From Methylomusa anaerophila (GTDB lineage: Bacteria; Bacillota; Negativicutes; Sporomusales; Sporomusaceae): 64,000 nt of DNA. Below are positions 60,162 through 64,000 of the stretch, piece after piece. Position 1 is the stretch's first letter. The number at the start of each line of letters is the position of its first letter. The notes beneath the pieces were generated by a model that searched no databases, was not told the origin of the DNA, and saw only the letters and a program-made list of their open reading frames with translations. The DNA lies in assembly GCF_003966895.1 (NCBI RefSeq), contig NZ_AP018449.1, forward strand, positions 1,422,001-1,486,000, given 5' to 3'. The translations under genes and the position numbers were made by a program.

Positions 60162-61235
60162 ATGCAAGATAGCATGTTAAAATGTTTACCGCCTGATATT
60201 GACCTTGAGACTAAAAAAGTTCTAAAACAGCTTGCCAGATCACATAGAGCACTGGCGGAGTTAAAAGGTTTTGCCGATACGATGCCGAATAAGAACATTT
60301 TGCTCAATGCAGTGACCACCAATGAGGCGAAGGATAGTTCCGAAATAGAAAATATCATAACCACTCACGACGAATTGTTTAAGGCTATGTCCCAAGCAAA
60401 TTATCATAACCCCGCGGCCAAGGAAGTTGTAAACTATCGGACGGCTCTCTGGAAGGGGTATGAGCTCGTCAAAGCCAAAAAAATGATGACCACGAATATG
60501 ATTGTTGAAATTCAACAAGACATTGAGAAAAATCGGGCCGGTATCAGAAAGTTACCGGGAACGGTTTTGCAAAACCAGACGACGGGTGAAGTGATTTATA
60601 CACCACCCAGTAGTGAACAAGAAATTCTTGCCCTCATGTCAAACCTGGAAAGATATATAAATGATGATTATGATACGATTGACCCGCTGATAAAGTTGGC
60701 AGTAATTCATTACCAGTTTGAATCGATCCACCCGTTTTATGATGGGAATGGACGCACCGGAAGAATCATAAATGTTTTATACCTGGTTCTTAAAGAACTG
60801 TTAGATAGTCCCATTCTATATCTTAGTAAATACATCATACGCAACAAAAGCGCCTATTATCGGCTGCTACAGGAAGTGCGGACGAAAGAGGCTTGGGAGG
60901 AATGGGTTCTTTTTATCCTGGATGGCATTGAACAAACCGCCGAAGAGACATTGCTATTGGTGAAAAAAATTAATGCAGTGGTGGACAAGACTGCAGAAGA
61001 CATAAAAAATACGCTGCCACGGGTTTATTCAAAAGAATTGGTGGAGCTGTTATTTTATGAGTTTTATACCAAAACCGCCTACATTGAAGCAGGTCTCGGC
61101 GTTTCGCGCAAGACAGCGGCCGGTTATTTGTCGGCTCTAGAAGAAACTGGCTTCCTTGTATCGCAGAAAATTGGCAAGGAGCGAATTTATCTCAACAAGC
61201 AATTATTTGAGGTGGTTCAGGCGGCAGGGGCCTAA
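60162..61235 (+). CDS. Fic family protein (class II AMP-transferase)
   Basis: 357 aa. The N-terminal region contains the inhibitory helix motif SSEIENI near residue 60. The Fic core has HPFYDGNGRTGR near 195 with catalytic His and the phosphate-binding loop. The C-terminus is a winged-helix module (YIEAGLGVSRKTAAGYLSALEETGFLVSQKIG), so DNA binding or autoregulation is plausible. Fic enzymes AMPylate protein targets and are held inactive by the inhibitory Glu. Target unknown. Start ATG after GGAAGGGG. Confidence 0.9.
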   Translation: MQDSMLKCLPPDIDLETKKVLKQLARSHRALAELKGFADTMPNKNILLNAVTTNEAKDSSEIENIITTHDELFKAMSQANYHNPAAKEVVNYRTALWKGYELVKAKKMMTTNMIVEIQQDIEKNRAGIRKLPGTVLQNQTTGEVIYTPPSSEQEILALMSNLERYINDDYDTIDPLIKLAVIHYQFESIHPFYDGNGRTGRIINVLYLVLKELLDSPILYLSKYIIRNKSAYYRLLQEVRTKEAWEEWVLFILDGIEQTAEETLLLVKKINAVVDKTAEDIKNTLPRVYSKELVELLFYEFYTKTAYIEAGLGVSRKTAAGYLSALEETGFLVSQKIGKERIYLNKQLFEVVQAAGA

Positions 61236-61293
61236 AAGGTGCCTAGGCTGTGACGCCAAAGTTCAGGGATAATTCTATGGTTTGAGGTGACGT

Positions 61294-61656
61294 ATGGAAG
61301 ATTTATTATGCGATATGTGCGAGGAGCGCTGCGAGCATCCTGAGACAATATGCCGCGCGAAAGCCGAAATGCTGCCGGAAAATACGGTGCAGCAATTGGC
61401 GGAAACTTTCAAGGTCTTAGGCGATGGCACCCGGATTAAAATACTGCAGCTCTTAACCAAGCGGGAAATGTGCGTGTGCGATATTGCCGAGACGCTCTCC
61501 ATGGGCCAGTCGGCCATTTCCCACCAGCTCCGGGTGCTGCGGGCCGCCAGGCTGGTCAAATTCCGGAAGGTCGGCAAGGAGGCCTGGTATTCGTTGGACG
61601 ATGACCATGTGGTGGACCTGATGCGTCAGGGGCTGGAGCATATCAGCCACACCTAG
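61294..61656 (+). CDS. ArsR/SmtB family metal-responsive repressor (CadC-like), copy 1
   Basis: 120 aa. N-terminal Cys-rich segment CDMCEERCEHPETIC, then a winged helix with EMCVCDIAETLSMGQSAISHQLRVLR. The ELCVCD-type motif plus N-terminal cysteines is the alpha-3N metal site of CadC repressors (Cd, Pb, Zn). It is 120 aa against 124 for the paralogue at 62332, with matching N-terminal Cys pattern. It lies just upstream of the Cys-rich peptide gene. Confidence 0.9.
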   Translation: MEDLLCDMCEERCEHPETICRAKAEMLPENTVQQLAETFKVLGDGTRIKILQLLTKREMCVCDIAETLSMGQSAISHQLRVLRAARLVKFRKVGKEAWYSLDDDHVVDLMRQGLEHISHT

Positions 61657-61745
61657 TGGGTAAAACTTGTAAGTAACTCATTTCTAGAAACAACATAGAA
61701 TATTACATAAGACGTTCCCGCACATCATGATAGGGAGGACTCATT

Positions 61746-61934
61746 TTGAAAAAGGTTTGGGATGAGCCAGAAATAGAGGAATGGCCAAATGAGTTTGAAG
61801 TACGGCAAATATGTGCACCCAATTGTATGCCAAACTGTTTGCCAAGCTGCAGGCCGCTTTGTTATCCTTCGTGCAGACCTAGAAAACCGCCTGCCTGCAA
61901 TCCGGCTTTTACTAAGTACTATAACCCATATTAG
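61746..61934 (+). CDS. Cys/Pro-repeat small peptide with PqqA-like N-terminus
   Basis: 62 aa. TTG start after a clear GGGAGGAC site. The first 22 residues (MKKVWDEPEIEEWPNEFEV) look like a RiPP leader; the W-x-x-P...E...FEV pattern recalls PqqA. From residue 23 six Cys follow with period four as Cys-x-Pro-x units (positions 23, 27, 31, 35, 39, 43), then Cys 51 and a Tyr-rich tail KYYNPY. It lies between two CadC-like repressors and near a metal-exporting ATPase, so metal binding is one reading. A RiPP precursor is the other, but no maturase is adjacent. I do not recognise a described family. Confidence 0.6.
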   Translation: MKKVWDEPEIEEWPNEFEVRQICAPNCMPNCLPSCRPLCYPSCRPRKPPACNPAFTKYYNPY

Positions 61935-62331
61935 AGTGCATTTCACCTGCAGTATTTCTGTTTCCACTCATGCCCCGGAAACGGTGAATCAATCCCAAAT
62001 TCTTAGCCAATCAGCTCGAAGAAGATGAGTACCCCACTGATTGCTAAGAGTATGCCGGCAATGCGCTGTACCATATGCAGCCGGTATGAAAACTAATTGC
62101 CTCCGGAAAGCAATAGGGAAAATATAATAATCAACTCCTCTACACGCCTAAACAGGCAGAAGCGGCAGAGTTTTTTTCGACAAGATTCGGTTTTGACTTC
62201 GAGTTGATGCAAACCGTTTTTTTAATCATCGCATTTTTTCATGAACATGCCCTGGTAACCAGGACCGCTCTATTGACAGCAGGGAAAAGAACAGATATAT
62301 TTTAAATGACTATATATTCAGGCGGTGTGTG
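61935..62331. other. 397-bp stretch with decayed coding traces
   Basis: On the minus strand a 23-codon tail MVQRIAGILLAISGVLIFFE ends near 62003, like the C-terminus of a membrane protein. On the plus strand an open stretch (YTPKQAEAAEFFSTRFGFDF...) from about 62125 to 62305 has no start signal. Both may be remnants of lost transporter genes. A promoter for the next repressor lies at 62273-62301. Confidence 0.4.
62273..62301 (+). promoter_or_regulatory. Promoter with AT-rich operator-like repeat for the second repressor
   Basis: TTGACA (62273-62278), 17-bp spacer, TATATT (62296-62301). Just downstream ATATATT...TATATAT repeats overlap the start region and could be the repressor operator. Confidence 0.6.
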
Positions 62332-62706
62332 ATGAAAAAGTATGCCTGTGATTCCGATATGTGTGAACAGCTATGTGAACATCCTCAGACTATCTGTCTG
62401 GCGAAAAGCGAGATGATGCCGGAAAGGGAAGTGCAGCAAGTGACGGAAATTTTCCGGTTATTGGGTGATATAACCCGGTTTAAAATCCTGCAAGCGTTAT
62501 CCAGCCGGGAGTTATGCGTCTGTGATATTGCAGCGGTGGTTGATATGGCGCAATCGGCTGTATCTCATCAGCTTCGTCTGCTGCGCGGGGCCCGCTTGGT
62601 AAAGTACCGCAAAGAAGGGACGCTGGCCTGGTATTCGCTTAATGATGATAATATTGCCGTCCTGCTGCAGCATGGGATCCATCATATCCAGCAAAATGAG
62701 AAGTAA
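62332..62706 (+). CDS. ArsR/SmtB family metal-responsive repressor (CadC-like), copy 2
   Basis: 124 aa. Cys-rich N-terminus CDSDMCEQLCEHPQTIC and winged helix with ELCVCDIAAVVDMAQSAVSHQLRLLRG. Same design as the gene at 61294, with similar spacing of cysteines. It is convergent with the P-type ATPase and separated from it by a perfect 22-bp terminator hairpin, so it does not share an mRNA with it. It likely responds to Cd, Pb or Zn. Confidence 0.9.
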   Translation: MKKYACDSDMCEQLCEHPQTICLAKSEMMPEREVQQVTEIFRLLGDITRFKILQALSSRELCVCDIAAVVDMAQSAVSHQLRLLRGARLVKYRKEGTLAWYSLNDDNIAVLLQHGIHHIQQNEK

Positions 62707-62713
62707 ATGACCG

Positions 62714-62760
62714 GATAAACAAGAGGACTGACCGCTATGCGGTCAGTCCTCTTGTTTATC
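62714..62760. terminator. 22-bp perfect bidirectional terminator
   Basis: GATAAACAAGAGGACTGACC... pairs over 22 bp without mismatch around a TAT loop (62714-62735 with 62739-62760). It lies between convergent genes. Confidence 0.85.
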
Positions 62761-62763
62761 TAT

Positions 62764-64000
62764 CTAACGCAGCCTTTGCATAAGGCGCATTCCGTTTAGT
62801 GTCACCAGAATGGAGGACCCCATGTCGGCTAATACCGCCAGCCACAAGTCAACATAACCCCAAAAGGTAAAGATCACAAATACGATTTTGGTCAACAGAG
62901 AAAAGCCGATGTTTTGTTTGATAATCGCAACCGTTTTGCGGCTTAGGTTAATGACATAGGCCAGTTTGCCCAGATCATCGGCCATTAAAGCGATATCGGC
63001 CGTTTCCAGCGCCGTATCCGAGCCGGCCACGCCCATGGCTACGCCAACACTGGCGGCGGCCAGTGCCGGAGCGTCGTTGACGCCGTCCCCGACCATTACG
63101 ACGGTGCCGTATTCCTTGGTCAGCTTTTGCACGGTAGTCACTTTGTCCTGGGGCAACAACTCGCTGTAGTAGGCGTCCAGATTCAGGGTCTTGGAAATAA
63201 AGGCGGCAACCCGGCTGTTGTCCCCGGACAGCATGGCGATGTGTTTCATGCCGGCCTGCCGCAGTTCCCGGATGGCGTCTTTACTGTTGTGCCGCAGTGT
63301 GTCCGCTACGGCGATCAATCCCCAAATGGACGTTTGGGAGCCGATGAGCATGACCGTCTTTCCTTGCTCTTCCAGGCTGATCATGACTTCTTTATGTTGC
63401 TTAAGGCTTAGGCCCAGTTCTTCAAATAACCGGGGGTTGCCGACATAGACCGTTTGCCCGTTGACATCGGCCTGCGCGCCGCGGCCCACCAGGGCCTTGA
63501 AATTGGTAGCCGGCGGCAGGGGAAGCTGCTTCGCTTTTTCCACAATTGCTACGGCCAACGGATGTTCGGACCATTTTTCCACGGCCGCCGCCAGGGTCAG
63601 CAGCTCGTGTTCCTTTTTTTCACCCAGTGGCAGCAGCTCGGTAACGACCGGACGGCCATAGGTAAGGGTGCCGGTCTTATCAAAGGCAATGGCCTGAATA
63701 CCGCCCATTTGTTCCAAATGAGCGCCGCCTTTAATGAGTACGCCGTTGCGGGAGGCATTGCCAATCGCCGACACAATGGAAACCGGCGTGGAGATGACCA
63801 AGGCGCAGGGGCAGGAAATGACCAGCAGCACCAGGCCCTTATAAAACCAGGGGGCAAACGGCTGATTAAACAGCAGCCACGGCAGTACCATGATACCGGC
63901 AGCAACAAGTAGGACCGCCGGGGTATAGTACTTGGCGAAAACATCGACAAATTGCTGGGACGGCGCTTTCTGGGCCTGGGCCTCTTCCACCAGGTGCATA
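62764..64000 (-). CDS. Heavy-metal P1B-type ATPase (ZntA/CadA-like), partial
   Basis: 411 residues visible; the N-terminal part runs past the window end. Seen motifs: transmembrane metal site SCPCALVIS, phosphorylation site DKTGTLT, HP motif SEHPLAVAI, and MVGDGVNDAPAL. CPC with this context suggests export of Zn, Cd or Pb; copper transport is less likely given the CadC-like neighbours. The C-terminal two helices end LNGMRLMQRLR. The missing part should include HMA domain(s) and the first membrane helices. Confidence 0.92.
   Translation of the reverse strand, partial: MHLVEEAQAQKAPSQQFVDVFAKYYTPAVLLVAAGIMVLPWLLFNQPFAPWFYKGLVLLVISCPCALVISTPVSIVSAIGNASRNGVLIKGGAHLEQMGGIQAIAFDKTGTLTYGRPVVTELLPLGEKKEHELLTLAAAVEKWSEHPLAVAIVEKAKQLPLPPATNFKALVGRGAQADVNGQTVYVGNPRLFEELGLSLKQHKEVMISLEEQGKTVMLIGSQTSIWGLIAVADTLRHNSKDAIRELRQAGMKHIAMLSGDNSRVAAFISKTLNLDAYYSELLPQDKVTTVQKLTKEYGTVVMVGDGVNDAPALAAASVGVAMGVAGSDTALETADIALMADDLGKLAYVINLSRKTVAIIKQNIGFSLLTKIVFVIFTFWGYVDLWLAVLADMGSSILVTLNGMRLMQRLR

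Follow-up and report, generated by a model that had tools for sequence, protein, structure and literature searches.

RiPPs have been studied mostly as secreted antibiotics, signals or cofactors. In the StsA/StsB/StsC system, the W-x-x-P leader is bound by an RRE: the RRE StsC loses the leader once the W-x-x-P of StsA is changed, the recognition motif of StsA was extended to KPxWxxP, and the RREs of lasso systems read YxxP (PMC12710340). The maturases SkfB, CteB and SuiB have an RRE, a radical SAM and a SPASM architecture, and the model TIGR04117 (Syntroph_Cxxx) describes peptides with Cys at every fourth residue that are, by name, radical SAM targets. Bufferins, the products of MNIO enzymes, are modified peptides that are linked to copper and chelate it (PMC12452194).

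The peptide studied here shares the W-x-x-P leader with StsA and the four-residue Cys period with TIGR04117, and the enzyme linked to it has the SkfB/CteB/SuiB architecture, its RRE being a predicted one. The StsA leader was the only NCBIfam match of the peptide, a weak one (E 0.15), and StsB was among the matches of the enzyme; neither reached the cut-offs of NF045558 and NF045574 (12 vs 42 bits for the peptide, 82 vs 625 bits for the enzyme). Moreover, StsC is a separate RRE, whereas the predicted RRE is fused to the enzyme here, and the C-x-P core differs from that of StsA. TIGR04117 did not match the window peptide, and among six longer family members the top score was 11.2 bits against its cut-off of 50. 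Unlike the SkfB, CteB and SuiB systems, to which the fold matches showed 13-20% identity, the enzyme is accompanied by tandem C-x-P repeat precursors and by no conserved export genes; unlike the MNIO of bufferins, it is a radical SAM protein. An earlier sequence-only reading of this DNA had called the leader PqqA-like. A leader of the W/Y-x-x-P kind is indeed present, but no PqqA model was found among the matches of the peptide up to E 10, and membership of PqqA was rejected. The core of PqqA is Glu-Tyr, while that of the window peptide is made of Cys units; the predicted RRE of the enzyme resembles the PqqD fold and a PqqE-like core is also seen in the enzyme model, although the RRE is a fused domain here.

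The window, by which we mean the whole 64,000-nucleotide stretch of Methylomusa anaerophila DNA analysed, encodes the 62-amino-acid precursor-like peptide at 61746-61934 on the + strand (MKKVWDEPEIEEWPNEFEVRQICAPNCMPNCLPSCRPLCYPSCRPRKPPACNPAFTKYYNPY, with the TTG start read as M). It consists of a leader (MKKVWDEPEIEEWPNEFEVRQI), a core of seven C-x-P units and the tail AFTKYYNPY. Alignment of family members placed the leader motif W-x-x-P-E-I-E-E at 61758-61781 (+), and the core spans 61812-61904 (+). The seven Cys, at positions 23, 27, 31, 35, 39, 43 and 51, are spaced by four residues for the first six, exactly as noticed earlier, and Pro stands at +2 after all seven rather than after six. 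The ribosome binding site AGGGAGG (61732-61738, +) lies 7 bp ahead of the TTG codon, and this start, also proposed earlier, is supported by the ATG found at the same codon in one orthologue (L026).

A chance ORF was ruled out by shuffling, dN/dS and orthologues. None of 200,000 amino-acid shuffles of the peptide reached seven C-x-P; elsewhere in the six reading frames of the window, open segments had three at most. Close orthologues with 73-83% identity occur in genomes G005, G007 and G015, which appear to be Sporomusa malonica, S. acidovorans and Anaerospora hongkongensis, respectively; pairwise dN/dS among the four copies, that of the window included, was 0.085-0.23. The window ORF is therefore real and conserved, and its gene is under purifying selection in four genomes. 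One orthologue (L027) is longer by exactly one C-x-P-x unit. The window subtype is rare, since matches at E <= 1e-6 were found in only 5 of 300 genomes of the class; a more distant member, with 45% identity, is present in G068. A search of 72,556 plasmid records returned no plasmid-borne copy, and no Rfam element was found at 61000-63000 of the window. The Pfam matches LELP1 and C_tripleX were below cut-off and probably compositional, and they were discarded.

The window gene is one of six paralogues in its own genome, found by a profile search (the profile was built from 20 chosen family members) on contig C1 at 567482 (beside the enzyme described below), 663605, 684292, 1483749 (the window copy), 1837548 and 3053081. 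In all six, a W-x-x-P-E leader precedes a (C-x-P-x)n core, and longer peptides with W-x-x-P, then acidic residues, then (C-x-P-x)n occur in this genome and in relatives. Thus, homologues that keep the repeat, on which the sequence-only reading had staked its case, exist both as the four-genome orthologue set and as family precursors in many relatives. In the alignment of the 20 members W5 and P8 were invariant, apart from the core Cys and Pro, and the leader motif was common to solo and enzyme-adjacent precursors. Repeat number varies freely and the genes are scattered, so that the family has what is looked for in a RiPP precursor: a short peptide, a conserved leader and a core of variable repeats. 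We found no paper describing this radical SAM RiPP-like family in the open-licence PMC literature, and it has no name in the libraries searched; the 22 putative pathways of PMC9062424 may include a C-x-P pathway. Two further arrangements were seen among the precursors. In L056, two adjacent peptides with CWPWRGGGGG and CWPRRRPPCSP repeat cores lie at +1788 to +2607 from the enzyme end. In L098 (Pelosinus fermentans JBW45; +28 to +390 from the enzyme end) and in L071, a CWPRQQ tract is out of frame with the leader ORF, which looks like a frameshift within the repeat; the relative in L100 is a single frame.

As one of two options, the sequence-only reading had taken the peptide for a RiPP precursor on which a distant radical SAM enzyme acts, and inspection of neighbours in relatives bore this out well. 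In L031 and L036 a C-x-P gene lies directly behind a radical SAM/SPASM gene, whose counterpart in M. anaerophila (G000:C1:566241-567482, with its own C-x-P partner) is 0.92 Mb from the solo window gene. Of 60 relatives, 41 have a homologue of this enzyme (E <= 1e-30), usually just one, and its presence predicts precursors elsewhere in the genome: precursors (profile E <= 0.001) were present in 37 of the 41 enzyme-positive and 0 of the 19 enzyme-negative genomes (Fisher 4e-12), counts that become 36/40 and 1/20 if G027, positive through a distant homologue only, is taken as negative. At 40 close-clade enzyme loci, some on cut contigs, a peptide with four or more C-x-P was found directly 3' in 27, directly 5' in 2 and within 2.4 kb in 1, with none in the other 10. 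Among 79 named enzyme loci, such a peptide lay within 2 kb in 24 of the 31 close relatives and 33 of the 48 distant ones, compared with none of 107 control segments taken 3.5-6 kb away. With 27-40% identity, the distant relatives range from Clostridia to Patescibacteria, Latescibacterota and Bacteroidetes and carry C-x-P cores behind quite different leaders. Such recurrence of C-x-P under changing leaders argues that it is C-x-P on which the enzyme family acts. Radical_SAM matched 36 of 36 family members scanned and SPASM 35 of 36, and neither of two enzymes reached an NCBIfam cut-off among its best 25 matches; the window gene itself being solo, its genetic link to this peptide-modifying radical SAM/SPASM enzyme is through the precursor family and co-occurrence. 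From these patterns, modification of the window peptide in trans by the distant enzyme appears very likely. Apart from the peptide itself, only four divergent genes, by eye tig, clpP, clpX and lon, are widely conserved beside the enzyme; no conserved transporter, exporter or peptidase was found there.

The S. malonica enzyme as modelled by AlphaFold (pLDDT 91.8) was closest to the structures of SkfB (Z 24.9, rmsd 9.0, 305 residues aligned), CteB, which we take to be entries 5wgg/5why (Z 23.2, rmsd 6.3, 353 aligned), and SuiB (Z 22.8, rmsd 3.5, 299 aligned), these being the top PDB matches. Residues 1-85 modelled alone (pLDDT 90.9) matched the leader-bound lasso B1 proteins 6jx3 (Z 10.0, rmsd 1.9, 75 aligned) and 5v1u (Z 9.4, rmsd 2.5, 75 aligned), as well as PqqD 5sxy (Z 8.0, rmsd 2.7, 74 aligned). 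The N-terminal domain is thus modelled as an RRE fold of the type that binds RiPP leaders. The sequence xPKWExPE is common among the leaders of the family, which makes the W-x-x-P-E in the window peptide a plausible, though putative, handle for such an RRE.

A sigmaK-type promoter candidate, kept in all four orthologues, was found upstream of the window gene at 61676-61702 (+): an AC at 61676-61677, 16 bp, and CATAGAATA at 61694-61702. In the four orthologues the region from about -70 to -35 conserves GTAACyCATT..CTA.A.CAACATA..ATA between flanks that differ more, and the conserved stretch reads AC-N16-17-CATANNNTA. According to PMC3789822, sigmaE and sigmaK share a common -10 and differ in the -35, which is ATA for sigmaE and AC for sigmaK; the sigmaK promoter of sigK is CATATAAT with AC, and in C. 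difficile a YabG-like gene is under sigmaK and spoIVA under sigmaE. In our data, spoIVA of the nearest genomes is preceded by the sigmaE-like GTAATATT..CATATATTT, and yabG in the clade by CATAGTATGTA or CATAGGATGTA. We used yabG (27/27) as the sigmaK yardstick because dpaA (dipicolinate synthase A, TIGR02853) was absent from all 27 genomes searched (G000-G026).

Within 100 bp upstream, the strict literature form AC-N15-18-CATANNNTA was found at 6 of 10 solo precursors, 4 of 38 enzyme genes and 8 of 363 control ORFs. A relaxed form (AC-N14-18-CATANNNT[AG], that is, ending in T[AG]) was found at 9/10, 31/38 and 17/363, respectively, with one positive control ORF overlapping the L029 precursor. 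As the relaxed form had been set after the enzyme upstream regions were inspected, it was run on further loci, of which 28 of 30 were parsed: it occurred at 10 of 13 solo precursors (6 of 9 without the four window-type ones) and at 0 of 15 precursors directly behind the enzyme, whose position means that they need no promoter of their own. The relaxed motif was also found at 9 of the 17 yabG loci located (out of 26) and at 1 of 20 spoIVA; 7 of the 8 other yabG kept CATANNATGTA without an AC at that spacing. In the M. anaerophila genome, five of six precursor units had the motif upstream, two of them beyond 100 bp, at -123 for the enzyme operon and at -157 for the L022 unit, and the L299 unit had none. 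The window gene thus carries, judged from its upstream DNA, the sigmaE/sigmaK-type promoter looked for in a spore-coat gene, and we infer that it is probably controlled by sigmaK in vivo.

The distribution of the enzyme tracks sporulation, but the association is phylogenetically confounded. Of 300 genomes searched within the class, 50 have the enzyme (E <= 1e-90) and 52 have SpoIVA: both in 47, the enzyme alone in 3 (G024, 65% complete; G061; G085), SpoIVA alone in 5 (G012, G027, G032, G050, G089) and neither in 245. The missing SpoIVA of G024 is probably an assembly gap, since this genome has yabG. On an rpoB tree of 57 of the 60 genomes (three had no usable rpoB), with G024 treated as a spore-former and G027 as lacking the enzyme, the spore trait changed about five times; of 3 independent pairs, the enzyme moved with it in 2.4 and against it in none, and the sign test for correlated loss was not significant (median p 0.5). 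Far relatives of the enzyme also occur in groups not known to sporulate, so that a spore role would be a specialisation.

From these results, a hypothesis may be put forward to which we give a probability of roughly 0.6: the window ORF would encode a RiPP-like solo precursor that is modified in trans, produced by the mother cell and probably destined for the spore surface. It would belong to a two-component system with one radical SAM/SPASM enzyme, whose predicted N-terminal RRE would hold the W-x-x-P-E leader and which would act in trans on the (C-x-P-x)n core. To judge from SkfB and CteB, the nearest solved relatives, the chemistry would most likely be cross-linking of the Cys sulfur to a nearby carbon, the kind of thioether bond that marks sactipeptides and ranthipeptides. 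Given the sigmaK-type promoters of the enzyme gene and the solo precursors, the set would be made late in sporulation, in the mother cell. The product would probably stay there and join the spore surface layers, as no conserved exporter or peptidase accompanies the enzyme. Coat proteins assemble from the mother-cell cytoplasm and need no exporter, and the missing export genes therefore fit a coat role. For location of the window peptide at the spore surface itself we see about even odds, and a pure coat role leaves unexplained the metal-gene setting of the four window-type copies.

This setting favours another explanation, that the peptide is a RiPP which binds and buffers metal as part of a heavy-metal resistance island, with a bufferin-like role, possibly exerted in vegetative cells under metal stress. 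The gene lies between two ArsR/SmtB metalloregulators (61294-61656 and 62329-62706, both +; NF033788, 101 and 91.8 bits against a cut-off of 55); the sequence-only reading had named both as CadC repressors, of which the family stood and the name CadC was given by no model. The C-terminal part of a heavy-metal P1B ATPase follows at 62764-64000 on the - strand (885 aa in full, L210:1765-4422; heavy-metal and cadmium subfamilies matched). This ATPase has a long Cys-rich N-terminal stretch ahead of two HMA matches, and just upstream of the first regulator a 357-aa ORF (60162-61235, +) contains HPFYDGNGRTGR, presumably a Fic-like motif. Metal genes surround all four close orthologues, the window copy (G000) included: two P1B ATPases, LspA and a DsbD-like protein in L027, a multicopper oxidase, a histidine kinase, a partial LspA match and a DsbD-like protein in L025, and an HMA-DsbD protein with homologues of the L025 kinase and oxidase in L026. 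Furthermore, seven Cys would suit soft metals, and the bufferins offer a precedent (PMC12452194). However, no obvious metal genes were seen by eye in 15 kb around the G068 member. The ATPase operon is preceded by a TTGACT box and nested inverted repeats, whereas the upstream region of the peptide has no inverted repeat and shares nothing beyond single 8-mers with those of the regulators and the ATPase, which, at the level of sequence, led us to reject a shared CadC-type operator. As the gene lacks these repeats and has a promoter of the sporulation type, we do not expect it to be co-induced with the pump. Of the metal-chelating, ATPase-induced peptide proposed earlier, the association with metal genes holds, and the induction with the ATPase is not supported. 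We consider the metal-buffering explanation unlikely; in our view, the window paralogue has travelled with metal islands and may bind metal without being co-induced with the pump.

Alternatively, the peptide may be an unmodified Cys/Pro-rich coat protein held by disulphides, the enzyme acting only on its own neighbour peptide. Cys-rich coat proteins exist, and many C-x-P precursors are solo; yet solo and enzyme-adjacent precursors share one leader motif, and precursors were found in none of the 19 genomes without the enzyme, which makes this explanation rather improbable. A secreted antimicrobial or signalling RiPP, for instance a sactipeptide, for which the sactipeptide maturases SkfB and CteB as nearest solved relatives would speak, is the least probable, given the freely varying repeat number, the scattered genes and the absence of a conserved transporter or peptidase beside the enzyme; the evidence at the sequence level points to a spore peptide rather than an antibiotic.

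If the reading as a mother-cell spore peptide is true, RiPP chemistry would serve as spore building material, which would account for one enzyme serving many scattered substrates. The culturable Sporomusa and Pelosinus provide a compact two-gene system for testing the action of radical SAM/SPASM enzymes on C-x-P repeats. Speculatively, and as a rather doubtful extension, the peptides may represent a previously unnamed, phylum-spanning family of radical SAM RiPPs with a tandem Cys-x-Pro core and a new cross-link around each unit, which spore-forming Negativicutes would use as structural material of the endospore surface, one enzyme modifying the scattered precursors under sigmaK in the mother cell without export, and one precursor having been recruited into metal-resistance islands for metal-binding spores. 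Three related genomes (L081, L082, L083) have a multi-precursor cassette in which a second radical SAM homologue, distant in sequence (33-35% identity), is accompanied by at least two short C-x-P-core peptides with a double-glycine type leader (LTDEKLDKVSGG). Finally, a close-clade enzyme (61% identity) was found in a clostridial genome, that of Ruminiclostridium sufflavum (L113), possibly as a result of horizontal transfer; a C-P-rich peptide, its repeat partly masked as N, lies upstream of it.
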